DNA from: Microbacterium festucae
GTDB taxonomy: Bacteria > Actinomycetota > Actinomycetes > Actinomycetales > Microbacteriaceae
NCBI RefSeq assembly: GCF_025421715.1
Contig: NZ_JAOEFC010000002.1
Span: 248,001-312,000 of the forward strand
Length of the DNA: 64,000 bases
Direction of reading: 5' to 3'
Under the pieces are notes generated by a model that was not told where the DNA came from, searched no databases, and worked only from the letters and a program-made list of their open reading frames with translations. Positions 41,179 through 63,931 of the stretch are shown piece after piece (position 1 is the first letter of the stretch; each line of letters opens with the position of its first letter). The translations under genes were made by a program, and so were the position numbers.

Positions 41179-41595
41179 ATGCCCACGGAAGAGACCCTCG
41201 TCCTCGTCAAGCCGGACGGCGTCGCCCGCGGGCTGACCGGCGCGATCCTCGCCCGCATCGAGGCGAAGGGCTACGCCCTCGTCGACATCAAGCTCGTCGA
41301 GCCCGACCGCGAGACCCTGGAGGAGCACTACGCCGAGCACGTCGGCAAGCCCTTCTTCGAGCCGCTCGTCGAGTTCATGCTGTCGGGCCCGTCGGTGGCC
41401 ATCCGCCTCGCGGGCAACCGCGTGATCGAGGGCTTCCGCTCCCTCGCCGGCACCACCGACCCCACCACCGCCGCCCCCGGCACCATCCGCGGCGACTTCG
41501 GCCGCGACTGGGGCCTCAAGGTGCAGCAGAACCTCGTGCACGGCTCCGACAGCCCCGAGTCCGCCGCCCGAGAGCTCGGCATCTGGTTCGGCTGA
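41179..41595 (+). CDS. ndk: Nucleoside diphosphate kinase
   Basis: A 138-residue enzyme that balances NTP pools. TLVLVKPDGVARGLTGAIL, the central GPSVAIRLAGNRVIEGFRSLAGTTDP, RGDFGRDW and the phosphorylated histidine in NLVHGSDSPESA (about H121) are present. GGAG lies before the ATG. It is the last gene of the ileS operon and is followed by a stem-loop and the first 63-bp repeat array. Confidence 0.96.
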   Translation: MPTEETLVLVKPDGVARGLTGAILARIEAKGYALVDIKLVEPDRETLEEHYAEHVGKPFFEPLVEFMLSGPSVAIRLAGNRVIEGFRSLAGTTDPTTAAPGTIRGDFGRDWGLKVQQNLVHGSDSPESAARELGIWFG

Positions 41596-41604
41596 GTCCG
41601 GTGT

Positions 41605-41622
41605 GACCCGCCCGGGCGGGTC
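41605..41622 (+). terminator. Palindromic stem-loop after ndk
   Basis: GACCCGCCCGGGCGGGTC is a perfect 18-bp palindrome ten bases after the ndk stop. It lacks a T-run, so it may be a weak terminator or 3' end stabiliser. Confidence 0.45.
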
Positions 41623-41660: not shown

Positions 41661-42660
41661 TGCGCGGGTGCGCGGGGTACGTGTCCCGTGATGTGCGGGT
41701 GCTGGTGCCCCGACCCGCGGTTTGTGGGACCTGGCATCCGTGCGTGTCCCGTGTTGGGTGGGTGCTGACGCAGTGAGGTCAGCGTTCGCGTGACCTGCTG
41801 CTCTGGTGGGTCCCGCGATCGGTGGGTGGTGGTGCTGAGACCCGCAGTTTGTGGGACGCGGCATCCGCGCGTGTCCCGAACTGTGTGAGTGCTGCCGCAC
41901 CCGCCGTCTGCGGACCAAGCATCCGTGCGTGTTCCGCATTCTGCGGGGTGATGGTGTGCTGACCCACGGTTTGTGGGACGTGGCATCCGTTGGTGTCTCG
42001 CATTCCGCGGATGCTGGTTCCCCGACCCGCGGTCTGTGGGCCCTCGCATCCGTGCGTGTCCCGTGTCTGGTGGGTCTTGCTGCCCGGACCAGCGGTTTGT
42101 GGGACCTCGCATCCGTGCGTGTCCCGTGATGTGTGGGTGCTGGTCCCGATGCCCGCGGTTTGTGGGACCTGACGTCCGTTGGTGTTCCGCATTCTGCGGG
42201 TGATGGTGTGCTGACTCGCGGTTTGTGGGACATGGCATCCGTTGGTGTCTCGCATTCTGCGGATGCTGGTGGCCCGACCCGCGGTCTGTGGGACCTGGCA
42301 TCCGTGCGTGTCCCGCGATCTGCGGTCGGTGGTGCGCTGAGCCGCGTGGTCCCGGGGGCGAGGTGGTGGTCGGGTCGCGCGAAGGGCGGGGTGGATGCCG
42401 TCGCCCGCCGGTCCCGCTGCCGTCACCGCCTCAGCGGGACGCAGCGGCGCCCAGTCCCAGAATGCGCGAGTACCGGCAGCAAACAGCAGTCTGCGGGACG
42501 TGGTCTCTCGCCAGGTCCCGCTAACGGCGGGTGCTGAGGCCCGTCACCCGCGATCTGCGGGACGCGGTCTCGACACAGGTCCCGCTATCGGCGGGTGTAG
42601 AGCCCAATACCCGCACATTCCGGGACACGTTCCGGCGGCATGTCCCGCGATCTGCGACCA
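41661..42660. repeat. Array 1 of 63-bp double-hairpin repeats (non-coding)
   Basis: About a dozen units fill the gap between convergent ndk and the VKOR gene. The ideal unit is GTGGGAC, 15 bp, GTCCCGC, 5 bp, GTGGGTG, 10 bp, CACCCGC, 5 bp, a total of 63 bp. GTGGGAC-type arms start at 41724, 41851, 41909, 41973, 42036, 42099, 42162, 42225 and 42288, the last six at exact 63-bp steps. After a degenerate stretch, a second sub-array with GCGGGAC arms starts at 42493, 42557 and 42620. Each unit can form two hairpins. All frames look open only because the repeats lack stops; there is no start with a ribosome site. The rest of the gap to 42756 shows a few short GATA/CCGGT repeats. Confidence 0.9.
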
Positions 42661-42756: not shown

Positions 42757-43371
42757 TCAGAACAGGATGTCGATGAGCTGCGGGACGGCGTCGAGGCGAA
42801 TCTGGGCGAGAAGGAGCACGACGGCGTAGGTGACGAAGGCCATGAGCGGCACCCACGCCGACAGGGCCGCGCCGATCGAGCGCGCGCGCTCCGACGACGA
42901 GATCGTGCCGTTGCGCAGCAGCTGCACCCACACGGCGTAGAACGTCGGGATCGTCACGAGCCAGGTCACCATGCACCACGGGCAGAGGGTGCCGAGCACG
43001 AAGATGCTCTGCCCGATGAGCCACAGCACGAAACCGAACGCGAAGGTGATCCCGGCGGCGAAGCACCACCAGAACCAGCGGGCGAAGCGCGCTCCGGCCA
43101 GGATCGCCATGCCGACGACGATGGGGGCGACCCATCCGGTGAGGCCGAGGATCGGGTTGGGGAAGCCGAACGCCGACCCCTGCGGAGAGTCGAGGTTCGC
43201 CGAGCACTGCACGATCACACTGAAGTCGCAGGACGCCCCGTCGCCGGGGGAGGTGAGCGCGTGGAACTTCTCGAGCGTCAGGGCGAATGCCGCGATCCAG
43301 CCGATCACGCCGGCCACGACGAGCCAGATCGCGAACACGGTCGGACGGGCTTCTGCGGGGCGTGACGGCAT
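42757..43371 (-). CDS. Vitamin K epoxide reductase (VKOR) family protein
   Basis: A 204-residue membrane protein with about five helices. The active-site CxxC is in LGTLCPWCMVTW, with a loop cysteine pair in ASCDFSVIVQCSANL, the VKOR arrangement. Bacterial VKORs reoxidise DsbA-like thiol oxidases using quinone. No DsbA-like gene is adjacent. The ATG at 43371 is six bases from a -10 candidate GATAAT (leftward, 43383-43378), so the transcript may be leaderless. Confidence 0.92.
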   Translation of the reverse strand: MPSRPAEARPTVFAIWLVVAGVIGWIAAFALTLEKFHALTSPGDGASCDFSVIVQCSANLDSPQGSAFGFPNPILGLTGWVAPIVVGMAILAGARFARWFWWCFAAGITFAFGFVLWLIGQSIFVLGTLCPWCMVTWLVTIPTFYAVWVQLLRNGTISSSERARSIGAALSAWVPLMAFVTYAVVLLLAQIRLDAVPQLIDILF

Positions 43372-43445
43372 CCGCCGATTATCCCATCCGCAGGCCTCCG
43401 GCACGCGCGGGACGGCGCGTCCGCGCAATCGAACGGGCCGCGTGC

Positions 43446-53859: not shown

Positions 53860-54324
53860 TCAGCGGGGTCGTTCCTCATCGGTTGTGAATCCCTCGCGCG
53901 CTGCACGCTCCTCCAGCGTCTCCAGCTCCTGGAAGAACGTCACCTGCCAGCCATCCGGCCCCTGCACCCGCGCGTTCAGGCTCTGGAACGGGGTGCGCAC
54001 CGGCGCCGCGATCACCTCGGTGCCCTCATCGCGCACGGTCGCGACCGCCTGCTCGGTGTCGGCCACCTCGAGCGCGATCCGCAGCACGCCCGGCGCGTGC
54101 GGCGCGTTCTCGACCTCGTCGATGTTCCGCGCATGGGCTGGCGTGGCGAGCTCGATCGTCGCGATCCCCGCGTGCAGGATCGCCACCCGGTCGTCGCCCT
54201 CGGTCGCGAAGGCCAGCTGCTCCGGCATCCCCAGCACGTCGCGGTAGAAGCGCACGGCGCTGTCGAAGTCGGCGGTCTCGATGATCAGGCGGAGCTGGCG
54301 GGGAGCGTTCTCGTGCGATGTCAT
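53860..54324 (-). CDS. VOC superfamily (glyoxalase/bleomycin-resistance-like) protein
   Basis: A 154-residue protein with two beta-alpha-beta-beta-beta modules: LRLIIETADFDSAVRFYRDVLGMPEQL and VLRIALEVADTEQAVATVRDEGTEV, ending VQGPDGWQVTFFQE with the metal-binding glutamate position of the family. The substrate is unknown. The ATG at 54324 has GAGGGG upstream. The gene reads away from the adjacent repeat array, so its promoter must lie in the short strip next to or inside the array. Confidence 0.87.
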   Translation of the reverse strand: MTSHENAPRQLRLIIETADFDSAVRFYRDVLGMPEQLAFATEGDDRVAILHAGIATIELATPAHARNIDEVENAPHAPGVLRIALEVADTEQAVATVRDEGTEVIAAPVRTPFQSLNARVQGPDGWQVTFFQELETLEERAAREGFTTDEERPR

Positions 54325-54379: not shown

Positions 54380-55080
54380 CGTGCGGGGGAGGTCCCGCAC
54401 CGTGTGGGTGCCCGCGCACCGCACTCACCGTTCGCGTGACCCGCGCCGAGTGGAGGTCCCGCGACCTGTGGGTGCCGCATCCGTCACCCGCGGATTGTGG
54501 GACATGCACCGTGGGGAGGTCCCGCGACCTGTGGGTGCAGCATCCGTCACCCGCGGATTGTGGGACACGCGCCGAGGGGAGGTCCCGCGACCTGTGGGTG
54601 CAGCATCCGTCACCCGCGGATTGTGGGACATGCGCCGTGGGGAGGTTCCGCGACCGGTGGCTGCAGGATCCGTCTCGCGCCGATAGTGGGACACGCGCCG
54701 AGAGCGGGTCCCGCAACCTGCGGATGCCGCACCCTCGACCCGCGGTTTGCGGGACGCGCGCTGAGAGCGGGTGCCGCGACCTGTGGGTGCAGCACCCGTG
54801 ACCCGCCGATTGTGGGACATGCGCTGAGAGCGGGTCCCGCCACCTGTGGGTGCAGCATCCGTCACCCGCCGCCTGCGGCGACACCCGGGCATGTCCCGCA
54901 AGCTGCGGGTGCAAGCGCCCGCCACCCGCCTTCTGCGTGACGCACCCCGGAAGCATGTCCCGCAACTCGCGGGTGCTGCGCCCACCACCCACCAGCTGCG
55001 TGACGCGCCCCCACGCCGTGTCCCACAGAGTGCGGATCCCACGCCCTGACACCGGCCACTCGCGGGACCTCGCGCCCGCA
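54380..55080. repeat. Array 2 of 63-bp double-hairpin repeats (non-coding)
   Basis: The divergent gap between the VOC gene and nagE holds at least seven units on an exact 63-bp period. GTGGGAC-type arms start at 54497, 54560, 54623, 54686, 54749, 54812 and about 54875. The units follow the same plan as array 1 (7-bp arms with 15, 5, 10 and 5 bp spacers). Here loop B often reads CAGCATCCGT and loop A is purine-rich. Units near both ends are degenerate. No ribosome site or start supports coding. The remaining strip to 55213 contains the nagE control region. Confidence 0.9.
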
Positions 55081-55213: not shown

Positions 55214-57229
55214 ATGAAGTTCTTCCAGAGACTCGGCAGATCGATCATGCTTCCGGTGGCTGTGCTGCCGGTCGCCGCAATCCTGTCCGGAATCTCGTAC
55301 TGGATCGCCTCGGCCGCGGGCGGTGCGAACGTCGTCTCGACGTTCCTCGGCGCCGCCGGCGGCGCGCTGCTCGACAACATGCCGCTGCTGTTCGCGGTCG
55401 GCATCTCGATCGGCATGGCGAACAAGACCGACGGCACATCGGCGCTGGCCGGTCTGGTGTCGTGGCTGACGATCACCACGCTGCTGAGCCCCGCCAATGT
55501 CGGCGGTCTGCTCGGAATCGGCGACGTCGCCGAGGTGAACCCCGCGTTCGGCAAGATCCAGAACGTGTTCGTCGGCATCATCGCCGGTCTCATCGGCGCC
55601 TGGTGCTACAACAAGTTCAAGGACACCAAGCTGCCCGACGCGCTGTCGTTCTTCTCGGGCAAGCGCTCGGTGGCGATCGTGACGGCCGCCTTCTCGCTCG
55701 TGGTGGCCGTGGTGCTGCTGTTCGTCTGGCCGGTCATCTACACGGGCCTCGTGATGTTCGGCGAGTGGATCGCCACGATGGGTCCCTTCGGCGCCGGCCT
55801 CTACGGCTTCTTCAACCGCCTGCTCATCCCGACCGGCCTCCACCACGCGCTGAACTCGGTCTTCTGGTTCGACGTGGCCGGCATCAACGACCTCACGAAC
55901 TTCCTCAACGGCGCCAACGGCGACGGCGTCTACGGTGTGACCGGTCAGTACATGGCCGGCTTCTTCCCGATCATGATGTTCGGCCTGCCGGGTGCGGCGC
56001 TGGCCATGCTGCTCACCGCGAAGGACAAGCGCCGCAAGATCACCTACGGCATCATGCTGTCGGCGGCCATCGCCTCGTTCTTCGTCGGCGTCACCGAGCC
56101 GCTCGAGTTCGCCTTCATGTTCGTGGCGCCCTGGCTCTTCCTCGTGCACGCCGTGTTCACCGGCATCTCGGTCGGGTTGGCGGCATGGCTGCCCACCCGC
56201 CTCGGCTTCGGCTTCTCGGCGGGCTTCATCGACATGGTGCTGCAGTGGGTCAACCCCCTCACGCAGAACCCGTGGATGCTGTTGCTGATGGGTGTCGGCT
56301 GGTTCTTCATCTACTTCTTCACGTTCTACTTCCTCATCAAGCGCTTCCGCCTGAAGACCCCCGGACGCGAGGAGGACGAAGACACGCAGGACGCCGACAA
56401 CATCGAGACGAGCCTCACCGGCTACCACGGCACCGCGGAGAAGTTCATCACCGCGCTGGGCGGCAAGGACAACATCATCGACGTCGACAACTGCGCGACC
56501 CGTCTGCGCATGGAGATCGAGAACCCCGCCGTCATCGACGAGCACGCCCTCAAGCGCGCCGGTGCCGCGGGCGTCATCAAGCCCGGTGGCAAGTCGGTGC
56601 AGGTCGTCTACGGCCTGAACGTGCAGTTCGTGAAGGATGCCATGGACGACATCATCAACGACCGCACCGAGCGCATCGAGGCTTTCGGCCGTGCGACGGC
56701 CGCCGAGACCGGCGCCGCCATGGGCGCGGCCACGATGCTCGGCGTGCCGAACGTGGCCGCCGGTGCGGTGGCCGCCGGTGCGGCCGCGCAGCAGCGGTCG
56801 GCCGAGCAGCGCACGGCGCCGTCGGCGGTCGTGACGCTGCGCCAGCCGGTGGCGGGCACCGTCGTGCCGCTGTCGGAGGTGCCCGATCCGATGTTCGCCG
56901 AGGGGACCATGGGCCCGGGCCTGGCGGTCGACCCGACCGGTGACACGATCGTCGCCCCGGCCGATGCCACGGTCGCGTCGGTGTTCCCGACCGGTCATGC
57001 GATCGGGTTGGCGCTGAGCGATGGCACCGAGCTGCTCATCCACGTCGGCATCGACACCGTCACGCTCAAGGGCGACGGTTTCGAGACGCTCGTGCAGGCA
57101 GGTCAGCAGGTGACGGCGGGAACGCCGCTGCTGCGGTTCGACGTCGCGAAGATCCGCGCCGCCGGCCTCTCGCCGATCACCCCGGTGATCGTGCTGAACA
57201 ACGAGTCGGCGACCGTCTCGTTCTCGTGA
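55214..57229 (+). CDS. nagE: PTS EIICBA permease, N-acetylglucosamine type (NagE-like)
   Basis: A 671-residue fused sugar transporter. The EIIC channel (about residues 1-380) has LLIPTGLHHALNSVFWFDVAG, FFPIMMFGLPGAALAMLLTA and FVGVTEPLEFAFMFVAP. EIIB follows, with the phosphocysteine in DNCATRLRME (about C427). After an Ala-rich linker, EIIA holds the phosphohistidine in LLIHVGIDTV (about H610). Sequence is closest to NagE over PtsG (for example LKTPGRE after EIIC), so N-acetylglucosamine is the likely substrate. GGAG precedes the ATG. Confidence 0.88.
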   Translation: MKFFQRLGRSIMLPVAVLPVAAILSGISYWIASAAGGANVVSTFLGAAGGALLDNMPLLFAVGISIGMANKTDGTSALAGLVSWLTITTLLSPANVGGLLGIGDVAEVNPAFGKIQNVFVGIIAGLIGAWCYNKFKDTKLPDALSFFSGKRSVAIVTAAFSLVVAVVLLFVWPVIYTGLVMFGEWIATMGPFGAGLYGFFNRLLIPTGLHHALNSVFWFDVAGINDLTNFLNGANGDGVYGVTGQYMAGFFPIMMFGLPGAALAMLLTAKDKRRKITYGIMLSAAIASFFVGVTEPLEFAFMFVAPWLFLVHAVFTGISVGLAAWLPTRLGFGFSAGFIDMVLQWVNPLTQNPWMLLLMGVGWFFIYFFTFYFLIKRFRLKTPGREEDEDTQDADNIETSLTGYHGTAEKFITALGGKDNIIDVDNCATRLRMEIENPAVIDEHALKRAGAAGVIKPGGKSVQVVYGLNVQFVKDAMDDIINDRTERIEAFGRATAAETGAAMGAATMLGVPNVAAGAVAAGAAAQQRSAEQRTAPSAVVTLRQPVAGTVVPLSEVPDPMFAEGTMGPGLAVDPTGDTIVAPADATVASVFPTGHAIGLALSDGTELLIHVGIDTVTLKGDGFETLVQAGQQVTAGTPLLRFDVAKIRAAGLSPITPVIVLNNESATVSFS

Positions 57230-63814: not shown

Positions 63815-63931
63815 GTGGTGGGCGCTGCGGCGCTGGGCGCTGGTGCTGCGGTGCTGGTGTGCTGGGCGTTGCGGCGCTGCGCCGCTGCGGTGCTGCGGTG
63901 CTGCGGTGCTGCGGTGCTGGGCGTTGTTGCT
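63815..63931. repeat. Low-complexity GCTGCGGT repeat after leuS
   Basis: Between leuS and the hairpin at 63932, the sequence is built from GCTGCGG-type words. At about 63883-63920 the octamer GCTGCGGT is repeated in tandem about four times. No gene is supported here. Confidence 0.7.

Follow-up and report, generated by a model that had tools for sequence, protein, structure and literature searches.

What kind of repeat fills the gap between ndk and a VKOR-like gene in Microbacterium festucae, and what could have put it there? The locus lies in a window of 64,000 nt (the whole stretch of DNA that was analysed). A preliminary description had reported a tandem 63-bp array of double hairpins at this place and had offered three roles for it: a binding array for a nucleoid protein, a REP-like dispersed element or a structured RNA.

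Anatomy of the arrays in the window

As described, the array lies between two convergent genes, ndk (nucleoside diphosphate kinase; ORF at 41179..41595, plus strand) and the VKOR-like gene (42757..43428, minus strand); orthologues of ndk adjoin VKOR in congeners. Repeat calls give 23 imperfect palindromes at 41683-42626, and TRF returns a period of 63 with 10.6 copies (41680-42346). In the main array (41683..42328, plus strand), a 19-bp repeat, REP A (GTCCCRC-N5-GYGGGTG), alternates with its inverted copy, REP B, at start-to-start distances of 29 and then 34 bp, which make up the 63-bp unit. In one such unit (42247..42309, plus strand), REP A at 42247-42265 is followed by a 10-bp spacer, REP B at 42276-42294 and a 15-bp linker. 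The plan that had been proposed (arms of 7, loops of 5, an inner spacer of 10 and an outer spacer of 15) is borne out by these calls and by the TRF period. The unit of two hairpins with a common core also stands, but the hairpins are not two different ones; a single asymmetric repeat is present twice, in opposite orientations. A weaker, outlying block (42515..42657, plus strand) contains two units and a terminal REP, with an A-to-B spacing of 30 bp (that of the 49-bp element described below) and then of 29 bp; the last weak repeat of the array ends at 42657.

Directly 3' of ndk, and separate from the array, is a perfect GC-rich hairpin, GACCCGCCCGGGCGGGTC (41605..41622), possibly a terminator without a U-tract. 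The 3'-3' gap between ndk and VKOR measures 1161 bp here vs 2-465 bp in 18 congeners, in all of which the gap is free of the repeat (empty sites). In G006, the gap (locus L074, 1192-1415) contains a tandem palindrome of 86 bp that is unrelated, GTGTCCACGAAACCCGG...GTTGTGGACAC, and thus one site has been colonised by different repeat families. A third family, built around GTGCACAACCTC with a period of 105 bp, is seen near the VKOR locus of G020 (L073, 1239-1434), and similar words are also present in L070.

A second 63-bp array with 22 REPs (54392..55068, plus strand; TRF and repeat calls) occupies a divergent intergenic region, with a glyoxalase-superfamily gene on its left (53860..54324, minus strand) and a PTS EIIC/EIIB/EIIA gene on its right (55214..57229, plus strand). 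Three consecutive, near-identical units at 54456..54644 (plus strand) are the cleanest copies in the window. A short tandem repeat of the GGCGCTGC type is found at the end of the window (63815-63926).

A genome-wide family with fixed spacing

The whole genome contains 27 arrays with 436 repeats, amounting to 0.53% of its length. Given these and the second array in the window, the ndk-VKOR array is not a one-off, and the reading as a solitary satellite fails. Genome-wide, there are 111 exact matches to the half-unit GTCCCRC-N5-GYGGGTG, vs three for a reversed control, which puts the repeat far above chance; no convincing solitary copy of it was found in the genome. Within the arrays, the distance from a plus to a minus repeat is 29 bp in 116 of 153 cases and 30 bp in another 22, and from minus to plus it is 34 bp in 139 of 149. 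In an unbiased slot test, which needs no repeat detection, 83% of the next slots show at most 3 mismatches in 14 positions, vs ~1% at control offsets.

When different arrays are compared, identity is 0.64-0.87 in the arms and 0.39 in the linkers, with 0.30 for random sequence. Thus, the arms keep their sequence and their spacing, and the linkers drift to near randomness. Compensatory pairing shows no sign within this genome, in small or in large hairpins: Watson-Crick pairing of the arms is as frequent as expected at most positions, and positions 6/14 have fewer double changes than expected (11 vs about 27). The arrays as they stand therefore do not require recognition of a hairpin.

The unit length of 63 is a multiple of 3, and long minus-strand ORFs cross the array, which would suit a coding sequence with repeats of 21 residues. 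We give this practically no credence, as 23% of the units have a length that is not divisible by 3, a gene finder based on codon usage calls no gene inside any array, and one congener, G297, has a period of 64.

In most arrays (41683-42626 in the window and others), the CCCGC/GTGGG wobble lies on one strand for both orientations of the repeat, irrespective of gene direction. A polarity set by the transcribed strand was considered and rejected, since polarity is uniform within most arrays, yet independent of the direction of the genes. Vsr-type enzymes act on T-G mismatches, and the strand bias of the wobble may or may not be related to this.

Genomic context

By the calls of the same simple gene finder, all 27 arrays are intergenic: 15 in convergent, 9 in codirectional and 3 in divergent gaps. 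Convergent gaps are enriched (15/27 vs 20/137, p=1.6e-5), and eight of the nine codirectional arrays are closer to the 3' end of the upstream gene. The orientation relative to gene ends, once mapped, places most arrays at the 3' ends of core genes, with a convergent bias; the neighbours are ordinary ones such as nusG|rplK, murG|murC, rpe|rsmB and holA|rpsT. Elements adjoin the 3' end of a luciferase-like monooxygenase gene (loci L050 and L189) in two genomes, the source genome, G000, where they form an array, and G009, where there are two, 82 bp apart.

Such positions would be expected if the arrays acted in RNA, their hairpins serving as bidirectional terminators or as stabilisers of transcripts. 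The plus strand of the ndk-VKOR array folds better than its shuffles (z -4.7), and the 49-bp element has compensatory pairing across species (below). We nevertheless consider this explanation very unlikely: pairing covariation is absent within the genome, no U-tract terminator-like sites were found, and ndk has a hairpin of its own ahead of the array. An Rfam search of the window matched a tRNA only and gave nothing for the array. Together with the three arrays in divergent promoter regions, these results weaken the structured RNA of the preliminary description. Its REP-like dispersed element, in contrast, becomes the best supported of the three roles, with 27 loci in this genome and carriers among the congeners.

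The 49-bp element in Microbacterium

The exact doublet is absent from the other 299 genomes of a 300-genome Microbacteriaceae sample, and the exact single repeat occurs at chance level in 296 congeners. Counts of the single repeat are misleading here because relatives have other arm sequences, which become visible only through the doublet pattern and a model. With the arms relaxed to the doublet pattern, the same plan is found with other sequences in congeners. A model built on sequence only detects members of the element in 55 of the 296, which is an undercount, as the scoring covered a small number of candidates in each genome.

In 18 species, the element reads GTCCCA...TGGGAC and is exactly 49 or 48 bp long, a constancy that is partly biased because retrieval with a model of 64 columns favours similar lengths. 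Its sequence is species-specific and its length nearly constant. With one element per family, compensatory change across species is strong: both sides change in 13 of 21 pairs, and the covariation score is 0.261 vs 0.122 shuffled (0/500 shuffles). Periods of 63 are found again in G080, G241 and, at one locus, G245, and G297 has a period of 64; G080 and G241 are distant from the source genome on an IleRS tree. Three sister species have one (G218), two (G080) and about four copies (G241) at glmS-acpS, differing in 63-bp steps, which amounts to growth of a tandem at a site that they share. The 63-bp unit derives from the genus-wide inverted-repeat element of 49 bp (48).

A Y1 transposase (the RAYT enzyme, PF01797) is absent from the source genome, from 22 congeners and from all carriers tested. 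An origin of the repeat in a phage or a plasmid was considered and rejected: blastn with the array of G000 or of G080 gave no match, and viral contigs contained no doublet.

Two further arrangements were seen among the congeners. In G206, G107, G096 and G243 (and also G290 and G146), the 49-bp element is accompanied by an additional half-site at a distance of 21-22 bp, or two helical turns, the order being + 43 - 22 - (loci L161, L162, L172, L178, L179 and L180). In G241, a different palindrome, GTGTCGTT...AACGACAC, forms 82-bp tandem repeats upstream of a 63-bp array (L110, 219-798).

A nuclease gene between elements

One gene of this genome stands between two arrays (contig C5, 101680-102651), and its product is a DUF559/MTES_1575 PD-(D/E)XK nuclease. 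Homologues were sought in all loci that had previously been fetched for their elements rather than for genes, and besides the source genome only G297, G243, G206, G080 and G241 have one among these loci. In each of the six species, elements are present on both sides of the gene. Upstream, the closest one has its start at -154 to -157 bp relative to the homologous start codon in five species; downstream, an element is within about 45 bp of the stop in five of the six (+8 in G000). The locus is syntenic (ptrB-nuclease-pfkA) in four species and rearranged in two; being largely syntenic, the six loci are not six independent events. Among the element-fetched loci, the nuclease is the only neighbour that recurs beside elements across many species; the remaining array loci of the source genome are common to at most one further sampled species.

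The protein matches PF18741 in all six species (E 1e-6 to 8e-5, though below the curated cut-off), and PF04480 is above its cut-off in two of the six. Residues D249, E260, D262 and H266 of a conserved D...ExDG..H pattern are invariant. The N-terminal domain has no Pfam match, and our guess is that it binds DNA; PDB searches with the nuclease gave nothing significant.

The fixed position of the upstream element, near -155, would also be expected if the repeats were binding sites of a sequence-specific host protein, the nuclease or another, that polymerises along one face of the DNA and either gives the nucleoid its shape or acts as an insulator between genes; ordinary recombination would have spread such arrays, and the sites at the nuclease gene would serve autoregulation. 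Conserved arms and helical spacing with randomised linkers, and the lack of pairing covariation inside the genome, point the same way, and a similar role has been proposed for constant-size repeats by Subirana and Messeguer (PMC8161180). The nucleoid-protein array that had been suggested is thus compatible with the arms, the linkers and the locked helical phase; binding itself is putative. We think this explanation unlikely. The element sequence is species-specific and its loci are mostly unshared, unlike the sites of a conserved nucleoid protein, and carriers were detected in only 55 of 296 congeners, probably an undercount.

Comparison with known systems

Nunvar et al. (PMC2817692) defined RAYTs by a gene for an enzyme that lies between palindromes with dispersed copies elsewhere in the host genome. 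Since an enzyme gene is bracketed in this way here and a Y1 transposase is absent, we propose a REPIN/RAYT-like system with an unrelated PD-(D/E)XK nuclease, whose tandem, phase-locked form is the 63-bp array; we hold this reading to be moderately probable. Like REPINs and REPs with their RAYT (TnpA-REP; PMC2817692, PMC3116915, PMC8049555), the Microbacterium repeats are inverted pairs of imperfect palindromes, extragenic and species-specific, with compensatory changes in the arms (here across species, not within a genome), tandem clusters and a gene bracketed by repeats. Unlike them, they come without a Y1 transposase, bracket a nuclease gene, have no GTAG (or CGTC) tag at the foot, where the consensus is CRnGTCCCRC, and form long 63-bp arrays that are locked in phase. 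In E. coli, the REPs of BIME-2 alternate in orientation in tandem, with fixed spacers between repeats. The Microbacterium arrays do the same, but are unrelated to BIME-2 in sequence and host, longer and more regular. They also differ from CRISPR, in that linkers of adjacent units are 60% identical and the repeats alternate in orientation.

Enigmatic bacterial tandem repeats of constant size, 20-21 and 52 nt, were described by Subirana and Messeguer (PMC8161180). Our arrays share with these a constant length, a species-specific sequence and, in each repeat, short conserved words together with their reverse. The period of 63 (64) is a new size, however, and here the unit leads back to an inverted-repeat element that is dispersed and to a nuclease gene with such elements on both sides. 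A constant period with a changing sequence may offer a mechanistic entry to such satellites, and 20-21, 52 and 63 are all near whole numbers of helical turns.

The bracketed gene belongs to the same DUF559 fold family as the Vsr-like nucleases, of which Caulobacter VsrA is linked to cytosine methylation (PMC12907096). In a literature search that covered subscription papers poorly, we found nothing that joins DUF559 with palindromic repeats and no earlier description of a partnership between nuclease and palindrome.

How the system might work

The array would be a tandem amplification of a non-autonomous, REPIN-like element. The amplified unit would consist of the inverted pair of imperfect palindromes, 48/49 bp in length (GTCCCR...YGGGAC), followed by a linker of 14-15 bp. 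We infer that the nuclease mobilises the elements, and that binding, cutting and helical phase have a part in this: the enzyme would recognise its cognate palindrome and cut or nick there, and repair of the break, or strand slippage, may then copy elements into new intergenic sites and lengthen tandem arrays. The period of 63 bp (6 x 10.5 bp) would be held because equivalent arms must share a helix face for cooperative binding.

Such a nuclease system would be the functional counterpart of the RAYT transposases, with a different enzyme. With neither the Y1 enzyme nor the GTAG tag, it falls outside the RAYT family, but may work in a similar way. In many bacteria, REP-like repeats are explained by RAYT transposases; here they are abundant in the absence of such an enzyme. 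Should the nuclease prove to be the partner, this would provide a concrete substrate, and a role that can be tested, for a nuclease family that is widespread but poorly characterised.

Nuclease homologues in other genera

Homologues outside this sample were chosen from a plasmid collection by protein similarity alone, which gave three from Arthrobacter, three from Tsukamurella and one from Nonomuraea. Palindromes of ~50 bp, different from case to case and their own, bracket all three Arthrobacter genes and two of the three Tsukamurella genes. For each of these five genes, the best palindrome on one side or both scores 16-20 of 20 pairs, and a score of 16 is reached by 3.3% of background windows. 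Around the third Tsukamurella gene there are matched inverted copies, but the palindrome is weak. At the Nonomuraea homologue there are no convincing palindromes (score 13, background level) and no matched inverted copies. For the six positive genes, the upstream flank aligns with the downstream flank at scores of 33-49; with gene flanks taken from other genera, the highest score is 25. Three of the palindromes were tested for dispersal and were found at 11, 10 and 20 sites, all within records of the respective strain.

These homologues bear on a further possibility, that a DDE transposase since lost spread passive 49-bp inverted repeats, that slippage grew the tandems and that the nuclease is a recurrent bystander. 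Like MITEs, the Microbacterium element is short and non-autonomous with inverted ends of constant length, no autonomous copy has been seen, and arrays grew in 63-bp steps at a shared site. Neither a parent transposon nor a clear target-site duplication was identified for it; its ends merge into a longer palindrome, and no pair of a single element and its empty site was aligned. Arms conserved far above the linkers, the nuclease as the one neighbour that recurs across many species, and palindromes on both sides of Arthrobacter and Tsukamurella genes selected by protein all speak against such an origin, which we regard as decidedly improbable.

Extended beyond Microbacterium, the proposed REPIN/RAYT-like system would mean that Actinomycetes have a second, independent solution of the REP/RAYT kind, in which DUF559/MTES_1575 nucleases are each bracketed by a genome-restricted palindrome family of their own, ~50 bp in length, co-evolve with it, disperse it and, in some Microbacterium, amplify it into arrays with a period fixed at six helical turns. 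We put this forward tentatively, at slightly below an even chance. One of the Tsukamurella loci (L278, ~937-1842) has its DUF559 gene between inverted copies of a repeat containing ACTTAACAGCGTTAGCCCAGG, and these copies resemble terminal inverted repeats more than full palindromes.
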